Positions 1,235 through 21,675 of a DNA stretch of 64,000 nucleotides are shown here, one piece after another. Position 1 is the first letter of the stretch. Each line of letters starts with the position of its first letter. The DNA comes from Halobaculum roseum (lineage in GTDB: Archaea; Halobacteriota; Halobacteria; Halobacteriales; Haloferacaceae): contig NZ_CP082287.1 in the NCBI RefSeq assembly GCF_019880245.1, positions 62,001-126,000 of the forward strand, in the 5' to 3' direction. The notes under the pieces were generated by a model. It was given only the letters and a program-made list of their open reading frames with translations, ran no database searches and was not told where the DNA came from. A program made the position numbers and the translations under genes.

Positions 1235-1430
1235 ACGACCAATAGCAAACGCGAGATATACTGATAAATACGCGGGAGAGTTTAGCAGGATATTCGCCAG
1301 TTACTACCCCGAAAAACTGTGCGTGAACTTTTCTATGACACGCTCACAGAAAATAGTTCACTCAAATCTCACTCCGCAACGGAGTGGCGAATACACGTCG
1401 GCCCTTCCCATAGGTTATATTACTCGGCGA

Positions 1431-1445
1431 TATAACTTGGTTATT
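1431..1445 (+). promoter_or_regulatory. Candidate ThiR operator upstream of thiC
   Basis: The palindrome TATAAC-TTG-GTTATT ends one base before the ATG at 1447. A TATA-like TTATAT lies about 27 bases upstream of the start, which fits a leaderless transcript whose start site is covered by the operator. Nearly the same palindrome occurs before thiDN (19380) and before the gene at 14303. Confidence 0.55.
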
Positions 1446-1446
1446 G

Positions 1447-2895
1447 ATGGCAAAGACTCAGCTTCAGTGGGCCAAAGCAGGCGAAATCACGTCCGCTATG
1501 GAACGAGTTGCCGAGCGGGAAAACTGTGATCCAGACTTTGTTCGACAGCAGGTTGCCGACGGACAAGCCGTCATTCCAAACAATCATGCGCACGAATCGC
1601 TTGACCCGATGATTATCGGACGTGAATTCTCTACAAAGGTTAACGCGAACATTGGCAATAGCGACACGACCAGTGGTATTGAAGGCGAACTCCGGAAACT
1701 CCACACTGCGGTCCACTATGGTACCGACACTGTGATGGACCTTTCAACCGGCGAGAATCTTGATAACATCCGTAGCGCTAATATTGAGCATTCACCCGTG
1801 CCGGTCGGTACCGTCCCGATTTACGAGGCTGTCAAGCATGTTGACAACCCCGCCGATATTACCCACGAACTGCTGCTCAATATCATCGAGAAGCAAGCCA
1901 CGCAGGGCGTCGATTATATGACTATCCATGCAGGCGTGCTGATGGAACATCTCCCCCTGACAGATGGCCGTAAGACCGGAATCGTCTCACGAGGGGGCTC
2001 CATTCTAGCCCAGTGGATCGAAGAGAATGGGATGCAGAACCCGCTATACACGAAGTTCGAGGATATCTGCGAGATCTTCGCGGAACACGACGTCACGTTC
2101 TCATTGGGCGATAGCCTCCGCCCCGGTTGTCTCGCAGACGCGAGCGACGAAGCCCAGTTCGCCGAACTCGACACACTCGGTGAGCTGACTCGGACCGCAT
2201 GGGACCATGGCGTCCAAGTCATGGTTGAAGGGCCAGGGCACGTCCCGATGGACGAGATTGCCGATAACGTCGAACGCCAACAAGACGTCTGTGATGGCGC
2301 ACCATTCTACGTCCTCGGCCCGCTAGTCACCGACGTTGCGCCGGGCTACGACCACATCACAAGCGCGATCGGGGCGACCGAGGCTGCTCGTGCAGGAGCG
2401 GCGATGTTGTGCTACGTCACCCCGAAGGAACATCTTGGTCTACCTGATGAGGTAGATGTCAGAGACGGTCTTGCAGCCTATCGGATTGCAGCCCACGCTG
2501 CTGATGTCGCGAATGACCTTCCGGGTGCACGTGACTGGGATGACGCGCTCTCTGAAGCGCGCTATGAATTTGACTGGCGCAGACAGTTCGAACTCGCGCT
2601 GGACCCCGAGCGTGCCCAAGAATACCACGATCAAACATTGCCTGGCGACAACTACAAGGAGGCTCGCTTCTGCTCGATGTGCGGTGTAGAGTTTTGCTCG
2701 ATGCGGATCGACCAAGACGCACGAGATGCCGACGGTGAGATGTCTTCGATTGATGACGAGACCGACCTTGATGCTTCGCCATCTGCGGATGTGAATCTCC
2801 CACCGGTTGGAACCCACGACACGAGTCGCGTTCCTGATGAAGTCGAAATCAATGGTGTCACATTTACTCCTGCCGAATCACACGCCGACGATTAA
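1447..2895 (+). CDS. thiC: Phosphomethylpyrimidine synthase ThiC
   Basis: A 482-residue radical-SAM enzyme that converts aminoimidazole ribotide to HMP phosphate, the pyrimidine half of thiamine. Visible family features are VNANIGNS near residue 60, [47 protein letters not shown] and the C-terminal cluster motif CSMCGVEFC (CX2CX4C) near residues 407-415. A polar acidic tail follows. The ATG at 1447 is preferred over a TTG one codon upstream because it follows a TATA box at leaderless distance. It lies between bluB and cobT. ThiC paralogues (BzaF) make benzimidazoles anaerobically, but the overall sequence here looks like an ordinary haloarchaeal ThiC. Confidence 0.92.
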
Positions 2896-8968: not shown

Positions 8969-9035
8969 ATGGTCCACTTTCACCGTGGATGGCTGATATT
9001 CATTGGGAATACAGTGCTATATCCGACTGGAGCGA

Positions 9036-10313
9036 ATGACACACGACCAGACTCTCGTGAAGACGCTGGATTTCCAGCTGAATATCCAGAGTGACAACGA
9101 GAGTCTGCTGGAAGACGCCACGGTCGAATCGAGGTGGGTGTACAACGAAACCATCCGTCTCGCCAAGCAGGGCGTAGACTGGGACGAAATCTCCGACCGC
9201 GTGGCTGACGACGCCGACCTCGTGAAAAATACGACACAGCGTATTGTTGCGAAGGCACTCGGTGCGATGGAGAACTACCACAAGTACGACGGCTTCGGCC
9301 CGCCGAGCCACACCAAGGACGGTGCGTACCCGCTTCGAGCCAACTACGAAGAGGGCTACAACCTCACGCTCTGTGACGACGCATCTGTTGGGTTCCGTAT
9401 CAGTGCCAAACCGTACAAGCACGTTAACGGGGTCCTGGAAGGCGACGACGCCCATCTCGACATATTGCGGGCGGCACTCACTAGCGACGAGTGGAACATC
9501 GGGACAGCGGAAGCACTGTTTCACGATGGAACGCCCGAGTTGCACGTCAACGTCACGAATACCGAGCACACCGTTCGAAACAAAGAGGACTCTCGGACGG
9601 TCATCGGCCTGGACGTTAACGAGGGCAACGTGGCAGTGTCGGCACTGTCAGCAGATGGCGTTGAAGATACGCTGGTCATTGACTTCCCTGAAATCAAGTC
9701 CGAGCGCCACCGGTACTTCACGATGCGAAAGCGGGTTCAGAACGCCGCAAAGCCGAGTATGCACGATTCGCTCGAAGGACGAGAGGAACGGTTTGTCCGT
9801 GACCGACTCCACAAGGTGAGTCGACACATCGTGAAGTGGTGCCAGCAGTTCGAGAAGCCGTGCATCGTCTTTGAAGACCTCAAAGAGATGCGCGACAGTA
9901 TCGACTATGGCACCCGGATGAACCGACGCTTGCACCATCTACCGTTCCGTGCGCTCCAATACTACACATCGTACAAGGCCGCCTTCGAGGGCGTTCCAAC
10001 GGCGTGGATTGACCCTGAATACACGAGTCAGCGGTGTCCGATATGTGGACATACGGAGCGTGGGAACCGGAACAAGAAGCGGTTCAAGTGTCAGGACTGT
10101 GAGCATCAAGACCACAGCGACCGAGGTGCGAGCGTCAACGTGGCTGTCAAAGGCATCAAGAAGCATCAAGAATGGGATGTGCCTGCTCTCAACAGCCTTC
10201 CCCAAGTGCGGAAGGTGCGACGGCAGGCATCGGGGGCCGTGGACGCCCCGACCGTGACCCACGACACCGATCAAGGGCATCAGACCGATGGTGTCGCGGG
10301 AGTGTCTGACTAA
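9036..10313 (+). mobile_element. tnpB: TnpB (IS1341-type) RNA-guided nuclease
   Basis: A 425-residue TnpB. The RuvC-like residues are visible: IGLDVNEGNVAVS (Asp), IVFEDLKEMR (Glu) and HQDHSDRGASVNVA (third acidic site). The zinc ribbon is CPICGHTERGNRNKKRFKCQDC. TnpB uses an RNA from the element's right end to cut DNA at the donor site and so keeps the transposon. No tnpA is adjacent. ATG 9036 is preferred over 9003 because the family begins close to this point. The element separates the gene at 8774 from a gene remnant. Confidence 0.85.
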
Positions 10314-11161: not shown

Positions 11162-12163
11162 ATGTCCCTTGAGCTGAGCTCCAGCGCCAGCACCGCCCGC
11201 GAAATCGCCGCCGCCAGACAAGCAGACTATGTGGCGTTTCTGCATCGAGCTCCGTTCGTCGCCGATGCTCTAGCCCTCGGATTTCTCCCCGGATTTCGCG
11301 AGGACTGTGGGTATCAAGAGACGCAGTTTCAGAACCTCAGCCTCCCCGTCGGGATGCTCGACAACGATTTTCGAAATCCCGATCTGGAGCGGTTCATCGA
11401 CCGTTTCTTCGAGTACGAACCAGAGGTCGGGGTCATCGGGGACGTCGACGAACTCGACGACGTCGACGCCCACGTCGCTGCTGCTCGCGAGATCCAAGCG
11501 AGCTATCCCGAGGCCCAGCTCATCGTCGTTCCAAAGTCGCAGGCGGTGATCGACGCAATACCCGAGACTCTTGTTCTTGGCTACTCGCGAGGCTATGCTG
11601 ACCGGTTGGCCCACGAGTTCTCCGACCCAGCCGATTGGAGAGGGCGGCGCGTCCACATCCTCGGTGGGAGCCCGCCCAAGCAGCTCGACTCCATTCGACA
11701 GCTGACCCGACCGACACTCACTGACGAGCCACCGGCCGACATCGTCGGCGTCGACTGGAACGGGTTGCATCGTGGCGCACAGTTCGGTGAATTCTGGACG
11801 GCCGACGGCTGGGACGACAGCGGTCGCGACGCCGACCACGTCACCGTACGAAAGACGGTGCGCCACAGCCTCGCCCGCGTCCGTGAGTTTTGGAGGACCC
11901 ACGGAATCTGGCCCGAATCGACACCGCAAGACGAGGGGCTCAACGTCGAGTACGAGGGACCGAGTCCTGCCGATCTCGAGGGCGCCGCCTGTACCGAGTG
12001 CGGGGCGAACGTCTGGCGAACTCGCCGCGGCCCGTACGTCGCCGAATACGATACCGGCGCAATCTGTGGATACTGCAGCTATGAGTGCTACTTCAGTCAC
12101 CATCACCGGAACAACCTGGAGGAAATCGCCGGCGAACAGAGCGTCTACATCCCGCCGGCATGA
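11162..12163 (+). CDS. DUF6610-family protein
   Basis: A 333-residue protein with long segments I recognise from the haloarchaeal DUF6610 group: YVAFLHRAPFVADALALGFL, VGVIGDVDELDDVDAHVAAA, GYSRGYADRLAHEF and GRRVHILGGSPPKQL. The middle looks like a TIM-barrel series of strands and ends in a Zn-binding region (CTECGANVW, CGYCSYECYF). The HILGG-type strand and the barrel recall tRNA-guanine transglycosylase/DpdA-like enzymes that insert deazaguanine bases in DNA or RNA, but this is only an impression. It follows an inverted repeat and a hairpin leader. Confidence 0.6.
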   Translation: MSLELSSSASTAREIAAARQADYVAFLHRAPFVADALALGFLPGFREDCGYQETQFQNLSLPVGMLDNDFRNPDLERFIDRFFEYEPEVGVIGDVDELDDVDAHVAAAREIQASYPEAQLIVVPKSQAVIDAIPETLVLGYSRGYADRLAHEFSDPADWRGRRVHILGGSPPKQLDSIRQLTRPTLTDEPPADIVGVDWNGLHRGAQFGEFWTADGWDDSGRDADHVTVRKTVRHSLARVREFWRTHGIWPESTPQDEGLNVEYEGPSPADLEGAACTECGANVWRTRRGPYVAEYDTGAICGYCSYECYFSHHHRNNLEEIAGEQSVYIPPA

Positions 12164-12175
12164 CGCAGCGTGCTG

Positions 12176-12207
12176 TTTTTCGAGCCCCGGGAGAGGGCGG
12201 AGGCTCG
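12176..12207 (+). promoter_or_regulatory. Recurring hairpin leader, copy 6
   Basis: TTTTT, then CGAGCC, core CCGGGAGAGGGCGGA and complementary GGCTCG. The perfect 6-bp stem differs in sequence from copies 3, 7 and 8. It lies in the 75-base gap between two genes of the same strand, so it acts inside a transcription unit. Confidence 0.6.
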
Positions 12208-12238
12208 GTCGTGAGCCTTCGTCCAGAGGTGACTTTCC

Positions 12239-12601
12239 GTGAGTCAGCAACAAACTGCAGACGACGTTTCAATCGATGAGATTCCAATCGATATCTCGAA
12301 CACCCAGTCCGGGAATATCGATCCCGCCGATGTCCCCGACGAAATCGAGTCGATCACCCGTGGTCTAGCGAGCGAACAGCCGCCGACGAACCCCCTGGTC
12401 GTCCTCAAAGCGGCTCGCTGGTGGTACATCCATGGCAAGGGCGGCACAGATCCCGCCTTCCAGTGGGCCATCGAGTGGGCGCGGCACCTCGCGACCGACA
12501 CGCCCAGCGACGTCGAGCGCTTCGACGACTTCCTCGAGTACCTCGTCACGGTCGGATTGGCCGATGAAAAACGCTCTCTACGCGATCCCAAGGCGCCCTA
12601 G
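12239..12601 (+). CDS. Hypothetical plasmid-type protein
   Basis: A 120-residue acidic protein starting at GTG 12239. It contains ESITRGLASEQPPTNPLVVL and AARWWYIHGKGGTDPAFQWAI. No family is recognised. It follows leader copy 6 and overlaps the convergent DUF3892 gene by four bases. Confidence 0.5.
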   Translation: MSQQQTADDVSIDEIPIDISNTQSGNIDPADVPDEIESITRGLASEQPPTNPLVVLKAARWWYIHGKGGTDPAFQWAIEWARHLATDTPSDVERFDDFLEYLVTVGLADEKRSLRDPKAP

Positions 12602-12897
12602 AACTCGGGCAGTTCGCCCAGATTGTCGCTCGCGATGTTGTTCCCGTCAGTCCGAAGGTAGGTTGTCCCGTCAACTTCTACAGTTCCGACATCGTCACCC
12701 TTTGTCCATTTCCCATTGTCATTCTTATACGCCGTACAGTACTCTTGTCCAACCGATAAGTTGAGGATGACGGCCATTCGCGATTTCGTATCTCGGTTGA
12801 CCAGTTGATCTCCATCGTCCTCATATACCCGAACTTGTTCGATAGAGTCACCACTGTATCTAACTGCAGTGATTACGTAATCTGCCCACTTGCTCAT
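12598..12897 (-). CDS. DUF3892-family protein
   Basis: A 99-residue protein with the DUF3892 pattern almost end to end: ADYVITAVRYSGDSIEQVRV, EDDGD, a CTAYKNDNGKWTKGDDVG segment and LRTDGNNIASDNLGELPEF. The function is unknown. It is codirectional with no neighbour and probably has its own promoter near 12930. Its base composition is lower in GC than the flanking genes, hinting at a separate origin. Confidence 0.75.
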   Translation of the reverse strand: MSKWADYVITAVRYSGDSIEQVRVYEDDGDQLVNRDTKSRMAVILNLSVGQEYCTAYKNDNGKWTKGDDVGTVEVDGTTYLRTDGNNIASDNLGELPEF

Positions 12898-12992
12898 GGA
12901 ACAGTGTACTCAGACGTGTAGTGTAAAATATTGGAAAGTGGAGTGAAACTGAACACGTTGCTGACGGCTGGAGAGCCAGTTGGTGAATTTCT

Positions 12993-13020
12993 GTTTTTGC
13001 GCCCCTGAAGGGTGCGGCGC
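12993..13020 (+). promoter_or_regulatory. Recurring hairpin leader, copy 7
   Basis: TTTTT, then GCGCC, core CCTGAAGGGTGC and complementary GGCGC. The start codon is 45 bases downstream. Confidence 0.6.
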
Positions 13021-13065
13021 GTTCTGAACTGACGCAGTCGCCGTGAACTTGATTCGGTGAACACA

Positions 13066-14004
13066 ATGGCTACGACTAGTGACTCGTCGGTTTCCTTCGA
13101 GGAGACCGACACGCGAGACGACGAGATGAACAGTACCATCGAACAGTGGATCGACGACCTCGTCGCCGGCGTCGACGACGCGCAGGCCAGCGAGGAGTTC
13201 CAAGAGTGGCTCGACCTCCAGAGTCGCTTCCACGACTACTCCTACCGGAACACGCTCCTCATCAAGCGGCAGTGCCCCGAGGCGAGCCGGGTTGCGGGCT
13301 ACCGGACGTGGCAGGAGGAGTTCGATCGCCACGTCACGGAGGGCGAGTCGGCCATCTGGATCTGGGCGCCGATCATCACCACGCAGTGCCCGGAGTGCGA
13401 GAACTCGCCGAGTTACCACGAGGACAGTGACTGTGAGTACGACGAGACGCCACCCGAGGAGTGGTCCGAGGGTCTCGTCGGGTTCAAGCCCGCGCCGGTG
13501 TTCGATGTCTCCCAGACCGAGGGCGAGCCGCTTCCCGACCTGGACACGGCAGCGACCGGGGACGCCGGCAACCTCATCGATCGGCTGACCGACGCCGCAG
13601 ATGAACTCGGTGTGACGGTTCGAATCGTCCCGGAAGCGGAGTGGACGCACGGTGAGGCGAAGGGTATCTGCGAGCAGCTCAGTCTCGTCGATATGCAGCC
13701 GCGCGTTGAGGTCCGCGATCGGGAGAACGACGCCGATCTCGCACGGACGTTGATTCACGAGTACGCACACGCCCTACTCCATTTCGACGTCGACGACGAT
13801 ACCGAACGGTCGAAACGCGAAGTGGAGGCCGAAGCCGTCGCGTACGTCGTCGGGCGCTACTGCGGTCTCGACACCAGCGGGTCGGCGTTCTACTTGGCTG
13901 CTTGGGAGTCTGACGATCCCGAGGTCGTTCGCGAGCGGCTCGGGCGGATTAGTCGAACGGCAGAAGAACTCATCGACGTTCTCGAAGACCCGCCTACTCG
14001 CTAA
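13066..14004 (+). CDS. ArdC/ImmA-IrrE-like antirestriction metalloprotein
   Basis: A 312-residue protein. The first half has the ArdC-N layout: QEWLDLQSRFHDYSYRNTLL, then GYRTWQEEFDRHVTEGESAI and an inserted four-Cys region (CPECENSPSYHEDSDC). The second half has the zinc peptidase motif TLIHEYAHALLH near residue 230 and a downstream EAEAVAYVVG that supplies the third ligand. ArdC proteins bind single-stranded DNA and protect incoming plasmids from restriction. This fits the plasmid-type neighbourhood. The start at 13066 follows leader copy 7. Confidence 0.75.
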   Translation: MATTSDSSVSFEETDTRDDEMNSTIEQWIDDLVAGVDDAQASEEFQEWLDLQSRFHDYSYRNTLLIKRQCPEASRVAGYRTWQEEFDRHVTEGESAIWIWAPIITTQCPECENSPSYHEDSDCEYDETPPEEWSEGLVGFKPAPVFDVSQTEGEPLPDLDTAATGDAGNLIDRLTDAADELGVTVRIVPEAEWTHGEAKGICEQLSLVDMQPRVEVRDRENDADLARTLIHEYAHALLHFDVDDDTERSKREVEAEAVAYVVGRYCGLDTSGSAFYLAAWESDDPEVVRERLGRISRTAEELIDVLEDPPTR

Positions 14005-14288
14005 TTCGGTTAATCAACAGATAGCGGGCTTTCGGCCGTCTGATGATTGAAATTTTTCACAGTCACAGACAAGGACTTTCAGGGAATAATGAGGAACTGC
14101 GATCTTCTAGTGGTTGTCAGAGATGGCTCTGTCAGGGATAGCTGCGACTGTGTTTTAAATATTATGTAGCAAGAGGCGACCCCAATCCGGTGCTCTGAGG
14201 AGCAAACATGACGTGTCGGGTTCCGGTCACCAAAGGAGTCTCCGGCGAATGCCTGAGTCGGTCAATCCCAACGTATATTACTGGCGAA

Positions 14289-14303
14289 TACAACCCAGTA
14301 TTA
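14289..14303 (+). promoter_or_regulatory. Candidate ThiR operator upstream of the Nramp operon
   Basis: TACAAC-CCA-GTATTA overlaps the first base of the ATG at 14303. A TATA-like GTATATTA lies about 27 bases before the start. The surrounding 38 bases align with the region upstream of thiC (TATATTACT-GGCGA then the palindrome). Confidence 0.5.
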
Positions 14304-14494
14304 TGAAAATCACCGATGATCAGTTCAAACAGTATCAACGTGAGGGAGATGTTGTCACCGACGGATTGGAATCGAGCGTGAAGGTCGAGTGGGTAACGTC
14401 TCACATTCGCGTGCCGATGGAACCGGTGGGTATTCTCTTCCAGCAGTCCCTGGTCCCATACGCCACCGGCGATCGATTCCCGGGGTGTGTCTGA
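14303..14494 (+). CDS. Small protein heading the putative thiamine-regulated transporter operon
   Basis: A 63-residue protein, MKITDDQFKQYQREGDVVTD and so on, with no transmembrane segment. No family is recognised. The ATG lies at leaderless distance from a TATA box and is covered by a ThiR-type palindrome. The stop is one base before the next start, so it is cotranscribed with the Nramp-like transporter. Confidence 0.55.
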   Translation: MKITDDQFKQYQREGDVVTDGLESSVKVEWVTSHIRVPMEPVGILFQQSLVPYATGDRFPGCV

Positions 14495-14495
14495 G

Positions 14496-15827
14496 ATGGC
14501 GTTCACCCGCCTCTATGAGCGGCTCTCGGGCATGGGGCCAGCGTGGCTCGCGGGTGCCATCGCAGCCGGTCCGGCCACGATTAGCGCGCTCGTGGCCGCT
14601 GGTGTCGGCTACGGATACGACCTCCTGTGGGTTGTGGTACTGTCTGCGCCGGTGGGGTTCGTCGCGTTGCTGTTGGCCGCCCGGCTCGGGACAGCTACTG
14701 AGCGGGGAATCGTCCGGGCCGTCGAGGACCGCCTCGGCAAGTGGTGGGCGTGGCTGCTCGTTGTTGACACCGTAATCGTCGCCGGTGTGGCCCAGTTGCT
14801 GATCATGAAAGGGCTCGCGGACGTGTCGACCTCACTATTCGGCCTGACTCCGCCGGTCTGGGGCGTGCTCTGGGCAGTCGTACTTGCGGTCGGACTCGCA
14901 GGCGGTGGGTACCGAGTCGCGGAAATCGGGGCGAAAGTTGTTGTCTCGGCTGTCGTGCTCGTGTTCGTCGCGACACTCGCGGTTGTTCCGCCGGACCCGG
15001 CCGCCGCCGCGGCAGGGCTGGTGCCGACGACGCCGCCGGGCGCGGCAGTCACCGTCGCAGGTGTGCTCGGAGGCGCCGTCCACATTACGCTCGTCACAAT
15101 GCACACGTACACGATGCGGGCCCGAGAGTGGGGCAGCGACGACTACGGGCTGGCGCGATTCGACGCCGGCGCATCGATGCTGGCCGCGTTCGGGCTGTAC
15201 AGCCTCTCCATCTTTCTGGTTGTGGCCGGGGCGTTGGGCGGCCGAGATGTCGCCCCACAGGCCACCGCGGCCGCGGCAGCGCTGGAGCCTGTCGCGGGGA
15301 GCGCGGCCGTGACGTTGTTCCTCGTCGGCATTCTCGGCGCCGCCGTCTCGACCCTCGGCGGCAACACGGTTGTCCCGCCATTCTTGCTCGCGGACAAGCT
15401 GGGATGGGGAACCACCGTCGATGATGGCCGGTACCGGGCGCTGTTGGCCGGGACGGCGCTGGTTTCGGCCGCGGGCGCGTTCGTCGGCGGGAACTTCATT
15501 CCATTGCTCGTTCAGGCGTTGGCACTCGGACTTGCTGGGACACCCTTCGTCCTCGCACTCGTTTTGTATCTCCTGTACGACGTTCCTGGTGGGCCTCCCT
15601 CGCGGCTCTTGACCGGCTCGGGCGTCATCTTACTAGGTGTAACAAGTGTAACGGCGGCCAACTCCGTCCGGGACACTGCAGCGACCCTGACCGATGGGCT
15701 CGCCCCGACTCCTGCGTTCGTCACCCTGTTCGCAGTCGTGCTAGGTCTCGCGACGCTCGCTCTACTCGCGCTGTTCGTGCGTGAGTGGGCAGCCGGGTGG
15801 CGACGCGCCGACCGCACGGCCGGGTGA
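14496..15827 (+). CDS. Nramp-family transporter
   Basis: A 443-residue integral membrane protein with about 11 hydrophobic segments. The first helix region, LAGAIAAGPATISALVAAGV, matches the Nramp family's first transmembrane segment, but the metal-binding DPGN is replaced by GPAT. Segment six contains GAVHITLVTMHTYTMRARE where metal transporters have an MPHN-like motif. Nramp relatives lacking these residues carry substrates other than divalent metals. With a ThiR-type operator in front and thiamine genes behind, a pyrimidine, thiamine precursor or cofactor metal is plausible. The substrate is inferred only. Confidence 0.65.
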   Translation: MAFTRLYERLSGMGPAWLAGAIAAGPATISALVAAGVGYGYDLLWVVVLSAPVGFVALLLAARLGTATERGIVRAVEDRLGKWWAWLLVVDTVIVAGVAQLLIMKGLADVSTSLFGLTPPVWGVLWAVVLAVGLAGGGYRVAEIGAKVVVSAVVLVFVATLAVVPPDPAAAAAGLVPTTPPGAAVTVAGVLGGAVHITLVTMHTYTMRAREWGSDDYGLARFDAGASMLAAFGLYSLSIFLVVAGALGGRDVAPQATAAAAALEPVAGSAAVTLFLVGILGAAVSTLGGNTVVPPFLLADKLGWGTTVDDGRYRALLAGTALVSAAGAFVGGNFIPLLVQALALGLAGTPFVLALVLYLLYDVPGGPPSRLLTGSGVILLGVTSVTAANSVRDTAATLTDGLAPTPAFVTLFAVVLGLATLALLALFVREWAAGWRRADRTAG

Positions 15828-15831
15828 TTCG

Positions 15832-16380
15832 ATGCGAGACGTTTTCGAGGAGGGGTCGACGCTCATCCTCGGCCCCTCGAACGTCGGCAAGACCCGGCTA
15901 ACGGCACGAGCCCTCGGCCGCTGGGTCCGACAGAATGGACCGTCGGGTGTCGTTGTCCTGGAGTTTGCACCCGAACTGAAACGGGACGGGACCGTTCTGG
16001 GTGGACGGCTGAGCCGGTTCACGTCGGTCCCTGATGATGCCTTCCATGGGGTCGTGGAGGTCGACGCCCCACGCGCGGAGAGCGACACCGAGGACGGCGC
16101 ACTCACGCTCGCTCGGGGGAATGCCGAGCGCGCGTTCCGCGTGCTTGCGGCGGCGCCGGCGAATCCGACGGCGGTGTTTGTCAACGACGCGACGATTGCG
16201 CTCCAGGCGGACGCCGACCGTGCGGACGCACTGACCGACTACTGCGACCACGCGTCGGTCACCGTCTGTAACGCCTTCGAGAGTGACGAACTCGGCATCG
16301 AGGATTCTGTTTCACGAAACGAGCGGACGTCACTGCAATCACTCCGGACGTGGGCCGATCGGGTCGTCGAACTTTCCTGA
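15832..16380 (+). CDS. P-loop NTPase of the transporter operon
   Basis: A 182-residue protein starting five bases after the transporter stop. It has a Walker A motif LGPSNVGKTRLTARAL near residue 15, strand FAPEL, and a Walker B-like ANPTAVFVNDATIAL near residue 105. It could be a small nucleotide kinase or a dedicated ATPase. It lies convergent to thiV with a 15-base gap. No specific family is recognised. Confidence 0.55.
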   Translation: MRDVFEEGSTLILGPSNVGKTRLTARALGRWVRQNGPSGVVVLEFAPELKRDGTVLGGRLSRFTSVPDDAFHGVVEVDAPRAESDTEDGALTLARGNAERAFRVLAAAPANPTAVFVNDATIALQADADRADALTDYCDHASVTVCNAFESDELGIEDSVSRNERTSLQSLRTWADRVVELS

Positions 16381-16395
16381 ACGAGCCGACCGCCG

Positions 16396-17916
16396 TCAGT
16401 CGGCCGGCTCCGTAGGGTCGTCGTCGATGCGACCGACCTCGCCGGCGAGACCTTCGAGGTCGAACGCCGACGATGAGAGCCGCGCTGTGACCAGTGTCAG
16501 CGCGGTTGAGACGCAGAATGCGCCCGCGAAGGAGGTCAGGTACAACGGATCCGCCGCGGGGAGTGCATCGCCGAGGACCGGGACCGCCGCGAGCGCGCCG
16601 CGGAGATCGGGGAAGTACGCCAGCCCGACAGTCAGCCCGCCGATACTGCTTGTGAGCGCGCCGCGGCCAGTGATCGACTCCGAGTAGAGCCCATAGACGA
16701 GCGGGAACGCGACGGCTGCGCCCAGCAGGTCCGCAAAGAAGAACAGCCGAAGCACGCTCCGGGCCCGGAGGCTGACGTACACCGCTGCGAGCGCCACAGC
16801 GACGGTGAACAGTCGGGAGGCGAGGCGGAGCCGTCGATCGTCCGCTGCGGTGAGCCGCCCCAGGTCGACTGCGACGAGGCTCGCCAGCGCGTTGAACAGC
16901 GTGTCGACAGAGCTGATTACAAGCAGTAACGCGAGCAGCGTCACCCCGAGGACAACCGGTTCCGGGAAGGCCTCCTCGAGAAGCACGAACAGTGCGACAT
17001 CGGCATTGTAGCCCGCGCTCGTCACGTCGGTCACGATATCCGTGCTGCCGACTGCGACGATGCCAAACAGGGCAGCCAAGAACACGAGCGCACCGTTCGT
17101 CACGCTAGCTGTTCGGAAGCCGCGCCGGACGACGTCGTCGCTCTCGCCGGCGTACACCCGCTGCCACCAAGTCTGGTTGATCAGCTCCGCACCGAGGATG
17201 GCGAACGAGAGCGCGAGTCCGAACTGCAGGCCCGGGATGAACCCGGGGTCAAGCAGGGCCGGGTTCGCAGCGGTGACCCCGTCGTAGACAGGGCCAACCC
17301 CGCCGACAGTTACGAGGACGGCGATGAACGTGGCCACGAGTAGGGGAATCACGAGCAATGCCTGCACGGTGTCTGTGACAATACTCGCCGTGAGCCCGCC
17401 GTAGCCTGTGTAGAGGAGCACGATGCCGCCGACCAACACGGCTGTTTGCCACTGTGGGACGCCGGCGACGAGCGAGAGCGCACCCGCAATTCCCGTGAGT
17501 TCAGCGGCTACAAAGACGAACATGTAGAGTGCAGACACCACAAGGATGAACGCGTACATCGCGGTCCCGTAACGCGCGTGGGCGTACTCAGTCAGCGAGT
17601 GACCGTCCGGAATGAGCTGTCTGATTCGCGGCCCGATCCGGGCGTACGCGAGCATCGGAACCGCCTCGCCGACGGCGTAGCCGACGACCGCAGCGATCCC
17701 GAAGCTCGCGCCGGCCTCTGGCGCCGAAAAGAGTATCCAGACTCCCATTACCGACGCCACCAGCGTCCCGGTCATCCGCCGCTCGCCGATCGAGCCCCGG
17801 GCAGTGATGAGATCCTCGACTGACCCGACCTGACCGCGGGAGTACCATACCCCGATCGCGGCGCTCCCGGCGAGCACCGCCACGACGAGCCCGAGTGCAG
17901 CTGTCGGCGTCACCAT
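16396..17916 (-). CDS. thiV: Sodium:solute symporter, probable ThiV (HMP or thiamine uptake)
   Basis: A 506-residue protein with about 13 transmembrane segments of the SSS family. Visible features include an N-terminal ITARGSIG after the first helix, GVWILFSAPEAGASFGIAAV, GYGGLTASIVTDTVQALLVI and ELINQTWWQRVYAGESDDV. SSS members named ThiV have been predicted by comparative genomics as HMP transporters in haloarchaea. The gene is the third of an operon with two tenA genes, overlapping the second by seven bases. This makes salvage of the pyrimidine half of thiamine the likely role. Confidence 0.7.
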   Translation of the reverse strand: MVTPTAALGLVVAVLAGSAAIGVWYSRGQVGSVEDLITARGSIGERRMTGTLVASVMGVWILFSAPEAGASFGIAAVVGYAVGEAVPMLAYARIGPRIRQLIPDGHSLTEYAHARYGTAMYAFILVVSALYMFVFVAAELTGIAGALSLVAGVPQWQTAVLVGGIVLLYTGYGGLTASIVTDTVQALLVIPLLVATFIAVLVTVGGVGPVYDGVTAANPALLDPGFIPGLQFGLALSFAILGAELINQTWWQRVYAGESDDVVRRGFRTASVTNGALVFLAALFGIVAVGSTDIVTDVTSAGYNADVALFVLLEEAFPEPVVLGVTLLALLLVISSVDTLFNALASLVAVDLGRLTAADDRRLRLASRLFTVAVALAAVYVSLRARSVLRLFFFADLLGAAVAFPLVYGLYSESITGRGALTSSIGGLTVGLAYFPDLRGALAAVPVLGDALPAADPLYLTSFAGAFCVSTALTLVTARLSSSAFDLEGLAGEVGRIDDDPTEPAD

Positions 17917-18671
17917 TCTTTCTCACCCAGATTGCTCCCAATGTCGGCATCGTAGGCCGACTCGAAGAACGCGACCTCCAGTTCGACCGTCCGCCGGAAC
18001 AGCCGGTCGAGCCGTGCGCGTCGGCGACCGGATGCGGCCGCGCCCTCCCGGTCGAGTTCCTCGCGTAGCCAGTCGACGAACGCGACGAACCCCTCGTTCG
18101 CGTGAAGATCGATCCACTCCCCGAGATAGAACGGCTCGGGCACCGCGTCGGCGGCGGTCGCCCACTCCCGGTAGATCCACTCGGCGGGCACGAGCACCGC
18201 GAGGATCTCGGCATAGCCGCCCTCGCGGGCCGCCCGCTCCAGTACGTCCTGAAACGCACGGGTCGTGGCCGTCGTTTCCGGGTTGGTGTACGCTTCCTTG
18301 GCCACGCCGAGCGCGTCGAACGACCGCTCGAAGTAGTCGTTCTCCTCAGCGGTCAGCGACTCCATGAATGTCACGAGTTGCGACTTCGCGGCCATCGTCG
18401 GGGCCTCCCCGACCGCGTGGCCGAACGTACCGACGAGCGTCTCGACGAACACGTAATCCTGGAGAAGGTAGCGGCTGTATACGTCGTCGGCTATCGTTCC
18501 CTCGATCAGCTCTTCGGTGAACCGGCCCTCGATGGCGGTCGACCACTGCGGCTCCGCGCGGGCCCGAAGCCAGTCAGTGAATCGCGCGCCCTCTGCGCCC
18601 CCCTCCGCCGCCGTGGCGTACGTCTCGAAGTCGACCGGGACATCCGTCCCGTCCGATCTCTGCGTCGTCAT
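17910..18671 (-). CDS. TenA family protein, cysteine-lacking (TenA_E-like)
   Basis: A 253-residue helical protein. It has YSRYLLQDYVFVETLVGTFG, the TenA substrate-pocket segment with Asp-Tyr, and EILAVLVPAEWIYREWA where classic TenA has a catalytic Cys. C-terminal ELEVAFFESAYD carries the conserved Glu. Cys-lacking TenA proteins act on amino-HMP-type breakdown products of thiamine. It starts at ATG 18671, overlapping the stop of the first tenA. Confidence 0.75.
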   Translation of the reverse strand: MTTQRSDGTDVPVDFETYATAAEGGAEGARFTDWLRARAEPQWSTAIEGRFTEELIEGTIADDVYSRYLLQDYVFVETLVGTFGHAVGEAPTMAAKSQLVTFMESLTAEENDYFERSFDALGVAKEAYTNPETTATTRAFQDVLERAAREGGYAEILAVLVPAEWIYREWATAADAVPEPFYLGEWIDLHANEGFVAFVDWLREELDREGAAASGRRRARLDRLFRRTVELEVAFFESAYDADIGSNLGEKEW

Positions 18672-19333
18672 AGCGGCCACCCCTCTCTCTCCCAGGCGGC
18701 ATCCCAAAACAGGTACTCGTACTGGGCCGATATCCCAAACAGGTCGCGATAGCGATCCCGCTCGGCGTCGCTGGCTTCTGCGGCCACCTCGTTCATGAGG
18801 TCTTTGCACCACGTCGTGAGTTCGGTGAATTCCTCGCCAGCGTACATCTCTATCCAGGCTGCGTACTGTTCGTGCTCCGGCACCCCACGCGCTGCGAGGC
18901 GCGTTCCGGTCTCGTTAAAGCCCCACATACAGGGCAAGAGCGCGGCAACGAGGTCACCAAACGTTCCGTGGGAGGCCGTTCGGACGAGAAAGTCTGTGTA
19001 CCCACGGGTCGTCGGCGAGGGATTGGTCGCCGCCAGCTCATCCTCGTCGATGCCGAACTCGGCGGCGTACGAGCGATGAAGGTCCATCTCCGTGTTCACG
19101 GTCGATTCGAGCAACGTCGCGAACCGGCCCATGCGTTCGAGATCTGGCGCCTTCGCAGCGCCGAGCGCGAATAGCCGGCTGTACTCGATCAGGTAGACGT
19201 AATCTTGGCGCACCCAGTGACGGAACGGCGCTTCCTCGAGGGTGCCGTCCCCGAGTCGGCGCACCATCGGGTGATCGAGAATCGCCGACCAGTAACCGTC
19301 GGCCTCCGCACGTAGTTCGTCGGTGAATGTCAC
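18668..19333 (-). CDS. tenA: Thiaminase II / aminopyrimidine aminohydrolase TenA
   Basis: A 221-residue protein close to the usual TenA length. FRHWVRQDYVYLIEYSRLFA holds the conserved Asp44 and Tyr47. LLPCMWGFNETG holds the catalytic Cys135, and Glu near the C-terminus lies in YLFWDAAWEREGW. It hydrolyses aminomethyl-HMP from degraded thiamine to HMP. It is the first gene of the operon, with a GTG start at 19333 and a promoter in the 63-base divergent spacer shared with thiDN. Confidence 0.88.
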   Translation of the reverse strand: MTFTDELRAEADGYWSAILDHPMVRRLGDGTLEEAPFRHWVRQDYVYLIEYSRLFALGAAKAPDLERMGRFATLLESTVNTEMDLHRSYAAEFGIDEDELAATNPSPTTRGYTDFLVRTASHGTFGDLVAALLPCMWGFNETGTRLAARGVPEHEQYAAWIEMYAGEEFTELTTWCKDLMNEVAAEASDAERDRYRDLFGISAQYEYLFWDAAWEREGWPL

Positions 19334-19379
19334 ATCAGGACGCTAGACCGAGGACCGCAAAAGTGTTATGTTCAGGTTG

Positions 19380-19394
19380 TATAACCCAGTTATA
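19380..19394. promoter_or_regulatory. ThiR operator between tenA and thiDN
   Basis: A perfect palindrome TATAAC-CCA-GTTATA ends two bases before the GTG start of thiDN, inside the divergent promoter region. It is the best of the three related sites and could control both directions. Confidence 0.65.
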
Positions 19395-19396
19395 TT

Positions 19397-20746
19397 GTGC
19401 GAACCCCAGCACCAGATACGCGACCCGTTGTGTTGACCGTCGCGGGCAGCGACTCGGGCGGCGGCGCCGGCGTGCAGGCAGATCTAAAAACTGCCGAAGC
19501 CTGCAGCGCGTTTGCAACGAGCGCAATCACCGCTGTGACCGCCCAGCACACTCGTGGTGTGGAGTCAACCCATGTACTTCCGCTCGAGGAGATCTCGGCC
19601 CAGATCGAGGCCGTCCGCGACGATTTCGCGGTCGACGCCCTCAAGACTGGGATGCTCGCCACCGAACCCGTCATCGAGCTCGTGGCCGACCACGCTGCCG
19701 ATCTGGCGGCGCCAACTGTCGTTGACCCAGTAATGGTCGCCACCAGCGGCGACCGACTGCTCGACCCCGAGGCAGAGGGGACCTACGAGGAACTGCTCGC
19801 GCACGCGACACTCGCCACACCAAATGCCGAGGAGGCCGAGTTGCTGACCGGTGTCGCCGTCGATGGCCAGGAGAGCGCCGTCGAAGCCGGCCGCGTCCTC
19901 CTTGAGACCGGCGTCGATTCGGTCCTCCTGACGGGCGGCCACGTCGCCGGCGATACTGTCCAGGACGTGCTGGTCACCGCAGACAGCGTCGAGACGTTCG
20001 AGCACCCGCGTGTCGACACCGACGCGACCCACGGCTCTGGGTGCGCGCTCGCCAGCGCCGTCGCGGCCCGGCTCGCCCACGGCGAACCTCTCATCGAGGC
20101 CGTCCAAGCGGGGACGGACCTGCTCGCGCGCGCGATTCGCTACAACCATGACGTTGGCGAGGGACCAGGAGCGGTCCATCACCTCGTCGCGCTCCGGGAG
20201 CGGGCGGCGCGCGACCGGACGGCCGAGGCTGTCGAGTCCGTCGTCCGGCGGTTGGTCGATACGGATGCCTCGCCCGCGGTTCCCGAGGTCGGGATGAATG
20301 TGGTCGGGGCGACGCCGTACGCAGAATCACCCGAGGAGACGGCCGCGGTTGAGGGGCGAATCACTCGAACCCTCTCTGGGGTGTCTCCCAACCGCGGCGT
20401 TCGCTTTGGCGCCTCAAGTCACGTTGCGCGCTTCCTGCACGGCGCGCGCGAGTTCGACCCCGTGTTGCGGTTCGCGGTCAACTGTCGGTTCGACACGGCG
20501 ATCGAACAACGGCTGGACGACCTTGCGGGAGTCGTGGTGGAGATTGATCGACGCGAGGAGCCCGAGCCAGACGAGGAGCGTTCGACAATGGGATGGGCCG
20601 CTCGGCGCGCCTTCGAGCAGGCGGACGGAACCCCCGTGGCGGTGTACGATCGTGGCGCCGTCGGAAAGGAGCCAGTGGTGCGTGTGCTCGCACCCGACGC
20701 CGAGACGGTCACGAGGCACGTGTTGACGCTCGCGGGGCGTGTCTAA
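19397..20746 (+). CDS. thiDN: HMP-P kinase fused to ThiN thiamine phosphate synthase
   Basis: A 449-residue fusion. Residues 10-265 are ThiD: LTVAGSDSGGGAGVQADLKT, DALKTGMLA, VVDPVMVATSGDRLLD and DATHGSGCALASAVAARLAHG, which includes the anion-hole GSGC. Residues 285-449 are ThiN: PEVGMNVVGATPYAES, RFGASSHVARFL and AVYDRGAVGKEPVVRVL. Together they phosphorylate HMP-P and join the pyrophosphate to thiazole phosphate. The GTG start lies right after the operator. The stop is two bases from the thiR start. Confidence 0.92.
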   Translation: MRTPAPDTRPVVLTVAGSDSGGGAGVQADLKTAEACSAFATSAITAVTAQHTRGVESTHVLPLEEISAQIEAVRDDFAVDALKTGMLATEPVIELVADHAADLAAPTVVDPVMVATSGDRLLDPEAEGTYEELLAHATLATPNAEEAELLTGVAVDGQESAVEAGRVLLETGVDSVLLTGGHVAGDTVQDVLVTADSVETFEHPRVDTDATHGSGCALASAVAARLAHGEPLIEAVQAGTDLLARAIRYNHDVGEGPGAVHHLVALRERAARDRTAEAVESVVRRLVDTDASPAVPEVGMNVVGATPYAESPEETAAVEGRITRTLSGVSPNRGVRFGASSHVARFLHGAREFDPVLRFAVNCRFDTAIEQRLDDLAGVVVEIDRREEPEPDEERSTMGWAARRAFEQADGTPVAVYDRGAVGKEPVVRVLAPDAETVTRHVLTLAGRV

Positions 20747-20748
20747 CC

Positions 20749-21675
20749 GTGCCGTTTACGCTCCCGAGTGAGATCGTCGTGGAGGATGTTCTCCCGACCC
20801 TCCGTGTCGAGCTTGCGGCCGAACTCCAGCGATACGGGCTCACCCAACAGGAGATCGCCGACGAGTTGGGCGTCACGCAAGCGGCTGTCTCAACGTACGT
20901 CAGCGAGGACACCGCCACCGACCCGCGCATCGCTAAACATCCCCGAACGCGAGCGGCCGTCGAGCGGGTCGCCGAAGGGCTTGCGACCGACGAACTGGAC
21001 GGGTACGAGGCCCTTGCCGACATACTGGACCTCGTCCGTGCCCTGGAGGACCGCGGACCGATCTGTGAGATCCACGAGACGCGAATGCCCGAGATAGCGG
21101 GGCTCGGCTGCGATCTCTGCGTTCGTGGCGTCGATCCGTCGGTACGCGCCGAGCGGGCCGCCCTCGCCGATGTGCGCTCGGCCGCGCGGACGCTCTCGAC
21201 TACGCCCGGGATGGCTGCGTTCGTTCCGAACGTCGGCTCGAACATCGGCGCCGCGCCCCCGGACGCCGAGACGCCGACCGACGTGGCGGCGATCCCCGGA
21301 CGTATCTACGCTGTCGATGGCCGCGTTGAGGTGCCCGCGAACCCGGAATTTGGAGCGTCCCGACACGTCGCCACTGTCCTCCTTGCGGCGGCCGCGGTCG
21401 ACCCAGATCTTCGGGGGGCGGTCAATCTTGCTACCGAAAGTGCGTTCCTGGCGGCGGCTCGCGAGCGCGGGATTGAAACGATGGAGTTCGACGCCGACTA
21501 CGAGGATCGCGAGCGCCGGCTCCGCGAACGGTTTGCCGACCGAGAGTCGGCACCCCGGGTACTGTACCATGAGGGCGCGTTCGGTATCGAACCGATCACC
21601 TACGTGCTCGGCGCGAACGCGGAGGAGGCAGCGCAGTATGCCGCCGAACTCGTAGAAGAAATCACGGACGCGTGA
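20749..21675 (+). CDS. thiR: ThiR-type transcriptional regulator (HTH plus ThiN-like sensor)
   Basis: A 308-residue protein. Residues 15-55 form a helix-turn-helix, AAELQRYGLTQQEIADELGV then TQAAVSTYVSEDTA. A four-Cys-like segment (CEIHETRMPEIAGLGCDLC) follows. The C-terminal 180 residues are a ThiN domain (MAAFVPNVGSNIGAAPPDAE, FGASRHVATVLLAAA, VLYHEGAFGIEPITYVLG). This architecture defines archaeal ThiR, which represses thiamine genes when it binds thiamine phosphate. The GTG start is two bases after thiDN. It most likely binds the TATAAC-N3-GTTATA palindromes in this window. Confidence 0.85.
   Translation: MPFTLPSEIVVEDVLPTLRVELAAELQRYGLTQQEIADELGVTQAAVSTYVSEDTATDPRIAKHPRTRAAVERVAEGLATDELDGYEALADILDLVRALEDRGPICEIHETRMPEIAGLGCDLCVRGVDPSVRAERAALADVRSAARTLSTTPGMAAFVPNVGSNIGAAPPDAETPTDVAAIPGRIYAVDGRVEVPANPEFGASRHVATVLLAAAAVDPDLRGAVNLATESAFLAAARERGIETMEFDADYEDRERRLRERFADRESAPRVLYHEGAFGIEPITYVLGANAEEAAQYAAELVEEITDA

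Follow-up and report, generated by a model that had tools for sequence, protein, structure and literature searches.

A candidate thiazole salvage module with an Nramp-family protein lacking metal ligands, behind a ThiR-type operator in haloarchaea

What do an Nramp-family protein without the metal ligands of its family and a P-loop protein annotated as 'hypothetical' in public records contribute to a cell in which their genes stand beside those of thiamine salvage? The initial annotation of this locus in Halobaculum roseum had described a unit of three genes, encoding a 63-residue protein, the Nramp-family protein and a P-loop NTPase, behind a ThiR-type site and next to thiamine salvage genes. 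We found this arrangement to be correct in the window, by which we mean the whole stretch of 64,000 nucleotides that was analysed. Three plus-strand ORFs that overlap or abut one another (ORF calls at 14303–14494, 14496–15827 and 15832–16380) form one unit, which is adjoined by thiV, tenA, thiDN and thiR. On its 3′ side the minus strand carries thiV, a divergent tenA and tenA, after which thiDN and thiR follow on the plus strand. The features are as follows.

1413–1440, plus strand: ThiR-type operator of thiC
1447–2895, plus strand: second thiC copy of the genome
14275–14302, plus strand: ThiR-type operator/promoter (ATATTACTGGCGAATACAACCCAGTATT), immediately before the operon's first ATG (model from thiC promoters of other haloarchaea)
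14303–14494, plus strand: 63-aa ORF, remnant of a PhyH-family 2OG-Fe(II) dioxygenase gene after an in-frame internal deletion
14496–15827, plus strand: Nramp-family (SLC11/APC fold) transporter without metal ligands, proposed HET/THZ importer
15832–16380, plus strand: P-loop protein of 182 aa with a RecA-like fold, proposed HET kinase in place of ThiM
16396–17916, minus strand: ThiV, sodium:solute symporter family (SSF, 85 bits), presumed HMP-type precursor transporter
17910–18671, minus strand: TenA2, divergent TenA-like protein (72 bits, where TIGR04306 requires 130)
18668–19333, minus strand: TenA (thiaminase II/aminopyrimidine salvage; TIGR04306, 192 bits)
19365–19396, no strand assigned: ThiR-type operator between the divergent tenA and thiDN (18.1 bits, core model)
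19397–20746, plus strand: ThiDN, HMP/HMP-P kinase fused to a ThiN-type thiamine phosphate synthase (profile search)
20749–21675, plus strand: ThiR, regulator with HTH and ThiN domains (ThiN 170 bits, HTH_3 25 bits)

The thiamine cluster is located on a contig of 240 kb which, judged by the typical haloarchaeal plasmid genes just upstream of the cluster, is plasmid-like. ArdC-like, DUF3892 and DUF6610 genes (12000–14003) were 87–93% identical to many haloarchaeal plasmids. Since a thiC, as well as ThiN-domain genes resembling thiDN and thiR, is also present on the chromosome contig, the cluster in the window is a second thiamine gene set. The divergent TenA paralogue TenA2 (17910–18671) is often the next gene after tenA in such clusters. 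Elsewhere in the window, bluB, encoding 5,6-dimethylbenzimidazole synthase (539–1234; TIGR02476, 269 bits), stands directly before the second thiC (1447–2895) with its ThiR-type operator, and the product of this thiC scored as a true ThiC, not as BzaB. A TnpB-type (IS200/IS605) transposase-like ORF, judged by eye, is located between thiC and the salvage cluster (9003–10313).

The site before the operon (14275–14302) scored 12.7 bits with a 28-nt model trained on thiC promoters, where random 300-nt stretches have their 99th percentile at 7.1 bits, and was similar to the sites before thiC (1413–1440) and tenA/thiDN (19365–19396) in the same window. The sequence TTATAACYWAGTAGTATAACCTAGTTAT next to the start codon was common to the thiC promoters of 30 haloarchaea, and thi4 promoters carried a related site. 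A palindromic operator model was trained on 30 thiC and 30 thi4 promoters only. With this model, 30 of the 81 Nramp loci had a site before the Nramp gene that scored above the 99th percentile for unrelated promoters, where about one was expected; at the heads of the Nramp operons, 31 of 81 exceeded the 99th and 48 the 95th percentile (Mann–Whitney p = 8e-29). The top-scoring promoters in the 'unrelated' set were those of thiDN, tenA and thiR. The strict model missed about half of the Nramp loci, and some of the lower scores, as in Haloarcula, belonged to visible variants of the site. With an operator in its promoter that is conserved across species, the Nramp unit is a predicted member of the ThiR regulon. 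Archaeal ThiR regulons published in 2017 (reportedly in J. Bacteriol.) are said to comprise ThiR with palindromic operators before genes of thiamine synthesis and transport, and the Nramp gene may already have been described as linked to ThiR.

The initial annotation had called the unit thiamine-related and had proposed its co-occurrence with thiV, tenA and thiR across haloarchaea as a check. We detected tenA, thiV, thiDN or thiR within about 8 kb of the Nramp gene in 27 of the 81 loci, the window included, where a rough estimate of the chance level was about two; the linkage recurred in named genomes and the claim was borne out. Several arrangements were observed, and since the orders and strands of the thi neighbours differ, they are not one inherited block. 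Nor was the unit consistently found away from thiamine genes and without the operator: loci that had no thi-gene neighbours still tended to have a ThiR-type site.

The Nramp protein is a member of PF01566 (209 bits, gathering score 29.8) and is annotated in public records as 'divalent metal cation transporter'. It scored below the cut-offs of all three NCBIfam metal-transporter families (65.9/430, 40.1/50 and 37.3/272.5 bits). Its model (pLDDT 89) had the fold of DraNramp, the top match in Foldseek (TM-score 0.75, 24% identity), and EleNRMT, a Mg-transporting NRMT relative, matched the fold likewise. Alignment with DraNramp showed the metal ligands to be replaced (D56 by G25, N59 by T28, A227 by G193, M230 by H196 and H232 by T198), with G25, G193 and H196 invariant across 38 diverse clade members. 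The ligand motifs of Nramp/MntH, DPGN in TM1 and M(P)H in TM6, were absent from the protein, which has GPAT and H-I-T in their place. It thus shares the fold of Nramp/MntH and NRMT but differs from both in its binding-site residues (G/T/G/H), in its place in a thiamine-salvage operon and regulon, and in its apparent dependence on a thiazole kinase, described below. The smaller side chains at the former metal site could make room for a larger substrate, and the replaced ligands support the non-metal substrate suggested earlier for this protein. The clade was present in 110 of 243 Halobacteriales genomes; its orthologues were 53–80% identical, whereas ordinary Nramp paralogues reached only 27–34%.

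The P-loop protein contains the Walker A motif GPSNVGKT and an invariant FVND. No Pfam or NCBIfam family matched it above cut-off, a PDB sequence search gave nothing significant (best E = 0.026) and PADLOC returned a weak P-loop match only. Its AF2 model (pLDDT 92, pTM 0.90), with the Walker A motif, a Walker B-like strand and the corresponding topology, indicates that it is a P-loop NTPase of RecA-like fold. The best structural matches were CobA (Z 13.0), CobU (12.6) and TK1-type thymidine kinases (11.9), and the Rho, F1 and KaiC ATPases matched at nearly the same Z (11–12); the modelled fold fits a small-molecule kinase and does not prove kinase activity. The CobU adenosylcobinamide kinase and the TK1-type thymidine kinases have, like the P-loop protein, a single-domain RecA-like P-loop fold and act on small molecules, as is proposed for the P-loop protein, but they have other substrates, share only 12–20% identity with it and give no significant sequence match, and the guanylyltransferase function of CobU is not implied for it. 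We found the P-loop protein in 60 of the 243 Halobacteriales genomes, all 60 of which carried the Nramp clade, and in none of the genomes outside Halobacteriales in a phylum draw of 247. The listed matches lay directly behind the Nramp gene, save one extra partial copy.

The distribution of the P-loop protein was complementary to that of ThiM. ThiM was called by PF02110 at E < 1e-50, other kinases reaching no better than about 1e-9, and was present in 98 of the 243 genomes. Among the 110 genomes with the Nramp clade, 57 had the P-loop protein only, 47 ThiM only, three both and three neither (p = 1e-23), so that ThiM occurred in 94% of those without the P-loop protein. One or the other was present in 107 of these 110 genomes, compared with 48 of the 133 without the clade (p = 1.5e-26, OR 63). 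In a control, the P-loop protein was independent of ThiC (p = 0.68). The complementarity held within the families f1, f4, f5, f7, f12 and f14, and there was no overlap at all in f1 (5 against 7), f5 (4 against 5) and f12 (6 against 3). On the tree of the Nramp protein the P-loop state changed 11 times; in seven independent, supported pairs that differed in the P-loop protein, ThiM changed in the opposite way in six and in the same way in none (p = 0.03). That the tree-corrected support reaches a p of only 0.03 counts against the reading that we prefer below. The complementarity was also seen in a second set, in which 39 of 43 named genomes fitted it; when those recognised as belonging to both sets were left out, 36 of the remaining 40 fitted (p = 5e-7). 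In Haloferax prahovense the Nramp orthologue is located about 8 kb from thiM.

The exceptions were two Haloarcula and three other genomes with both kinases, and two MAGs of the second set with neither. In Natrinema gelatinilyticum, one of the genomes with both, the Nramp and P-loop genes stand on a plasmid and ThiM is encoded by a separate contig, a placement that would be expected if the cluster is mobile. Two of the three genomes with neither in the first set were incomplete MAGs. The complete genome G003 (locus L064) has the order tenA-tenA2-thiV-Nramp, with a peroxiredoxin-like gene after the Nramp gene and neither ThiM nor the P-loop kinase; a third kinase is possibly present there. A search for a hidden P-loop gene in G003 and two MAGs with neither kinase, in a set that held no positive genome, found none. 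ThiM without the Nramp clade was observed in 48 genomes, and therefore HET import or salvage does not require the Nramp protein.

We consider it probable that these genes form a ThiR-controlled thiazole salvage module, in which the Nramp protein imports 4-methyl-5-(2-hydroxyethyl)thiazole (HET, also THZ) or carboxylated HET and the P-loop protein acts as the HET kinase that replaces ThiM. The gene linkage, the operator, the complementary distribution and the fold on which this reading is built are results of this analysis, and from them we infer the substrate, the direction of transport and the kinase activity. A thiazole moiety is the suggested substrate because the P-loop protein is complementary to ThiM, and the same distribution is the reason to regard the P-loop protein as a putative HET kinase (EC 2.7.1.50). 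When thiamine phosphates are low, ThiR would leave the operator, as published work on this regulator suggests. The Nramp-fold protein would then import HET, possibly in the 2-carboxy form, instead of a metal ion, and the P-loop protein would phosphorylate the hydroxyethyl group to give HET-P, which ThiN or ThiE would join with HMP-PP to form thiamine phosphate. The neighbouring ThiV and TenA would serve the pyrimidine half. Lineages with the same Nramp protein and no P-loop protein would use ThiM, of which the P-loop protein would be a non-orthologous replacement, analogous and not homologous as proposed from sequence. Both would catalyse the same reaction (HET + ATP to HET-P) at the same position in salvage; ThiM, however, has a ribokinase-like fold without a P-loop, whereas the P-loop protein combines a Walker A motif with a RecA-like fold, and a Pfam search found no match in it to PF02110, the ThiM/HK family. 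The initial annotation had proposed the import of a thiamine precursor with the substrate left open; the complementarity points to the thiazole moiety and to a kinase activity of the P-loop protein. Its alternative of metal supply is not supported, as discussed below.

Growth of a Haloferax volcanii delta-thi4 mutant on exogenous THZ (PMC4215014) indicates that haloarchaea take up and phosphorylate THZ. The 2-carboxy form of HET (cHET) is used by E. coli and marine algae, and ThiM was needed in the alga tested (PMC5899164); the distribution that we observed cannot separate HET from cHET as the substrate. If our reading is true, it fills the gap of how haloarchaea import the thiazole half, for which the importer used by the thi4 mutant is unnamed (PMC4215014), extends a transporter superfamily known for metal ions to an organic substrate, and gives a function to a protein annotated as 'hypothetical'. 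It would also explain why many haloarchaea lack thiM. The gene is missing from most Haloarcula, which has been read as possible reliance on external thiamine or on de novo synthesis (PMC12029414); the genus that includes Haloarcula salina and H. sebkhae (g32) mostly carries the P-loop protein. We lean slightly towards the broader claim that the P-loop protein represents a new RecA-fold family of HET kinases unrelated to ThiM, the Nramp protein the first transporter of its superfamily for an organic vitamin precursor, and the PhyH dioxygenase a means of widening the range to modified thiazoles. The role suggested here for the Nramp protein, thiazole import under thiamine control, has also been proposed for bacterial ThiW, which is controlled by a TPP riboswitch and is believed to belong to an unrelated membrane protein family. 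The thiW gene is described in the literature under tandem TPP/HMP-PP riboswitches, in contrast to the ThiR-type control of the Nramp protein. In the searchable literature, outside of which the 2017 ThiR regulon tables fall, we found neither the complementarity with ThiM nor the kinase proposal.

It is unlikely that the Nramp protein imports intact thiamine, with the P-loop protein acting as a thiamine kinase or as an accessory of thiamine uptake. ThiR control and thi neighbours would fit any thiamine vitamer, and some genomes with the Nramp clade (G001, G012, G032 and G144) lack both thiC and thi4. However, thiamine import would not lead one to expect the complementarity with ThiM, whose substrate is HET and not thiamine, or the frequency of ThiM where the P-loop protein is absent, and G012, with its complete tenA-thiV-thiDN set, salvages the halves. 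Quite unlikely, too, is a P-loop protein that is an ATPase, chaperone or transporter regulator instead of a kinase, with the absence of ThiM as a lineage effect. The strict linkage to the transporter gene, the Z of 11–12 for RecA-type ATPases and the clustering of P-loop and ThiM presence on the tree are compatible with such a role, but the complementarity was found within six families and in independent tree pairs, and ThiC gave no such signal. Moreover, Nramp proteins with and without the P-loop gene are close orthologues, and the transporter therefore does not need the P-loop protein. Import of the pyrimidine half (HMP or amino-HMP), as by ThiV, would agree with the frequent co-location of the Nramp gene with tenA and thiV, and we regard it as very unlikely: ThiD(N) phosphorylates HMP, so that a dependence on ThiM or a stand-in would be unexplained, ThiV already provides an HMP route, and 79 of the 110 genomes with the Nramp clade have thiC and are able to make HMP. 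A plain thiamine or HMP importer was rejected, as it does not account for the dependence on thiazole kinases. That the Nramp protein provides ThiC, Thi4 or the dioxygenase with a divalent metal such as Fe or Mn is highly improbable despite its family membership, fold and annotation and the use of Fe(II) by PhyH enzymes. The metal ligands D56, N59 and M230 have been exchanged, M230 for an invariant histidine, every NCBIfam metal-transporter cut-off is missed, and the two metalloenzymes of the pathway, ThiC and Thi4, are only weakly associated with the clade (OR 2.1 and 3.7, against the 63 for thiazole kinases).

In the thiazole salvage reading, the 63-aa ORF would be what is left of a PhyH dioxygenase gene that came first in an earlier form of the operon. 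The initial annotation had counted its product as a functional part of the unit, which we do not uphold. About 36 N-terminal and about 30 C-terminal residues match both ends of a PhyH dioxygenase of about 260 aa (PF05721, 138 bits for the intact relative), and the ORF lacks the complete catalytic domain and its HxD...H metal triad, the HQD and the intervening ~190 aa being gone. A conserved small protein was rejected, as the ORF aligns to both ends of PhyH. Among the 81 loci, 11 had an intact PhyH gene of about 260 aa beside the Nramp gene, in five of them upstream and in six in divergent orientation (L067, L070, L074, L081, L083, L089, L091, L097, L102, L103 and L111). Intact orthologues occurred in 17 genomes, six of them unlinked to the Nramp gene, and all 17 carried the Nramp clade (p = 7e-7). 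The dioxygenase showed no association as an alternative to either kinase (p = 1.0), and its substrate is possibly a modified thiazole. Three further loci (L032, L087 and L090) carry differently deleted internal remnants of the same gene at the same position upstream of the Nramp gene. The decay seems to spare the gene ends, perhaps for translational coupling. All four remnants start beside the operator and stop at or near the Nramp start, in the window 1 nt before the Nramp ATG, which suggests that the stub was kept as a leader for coupled translation; the 63-aa ORF may now be such a leader only.
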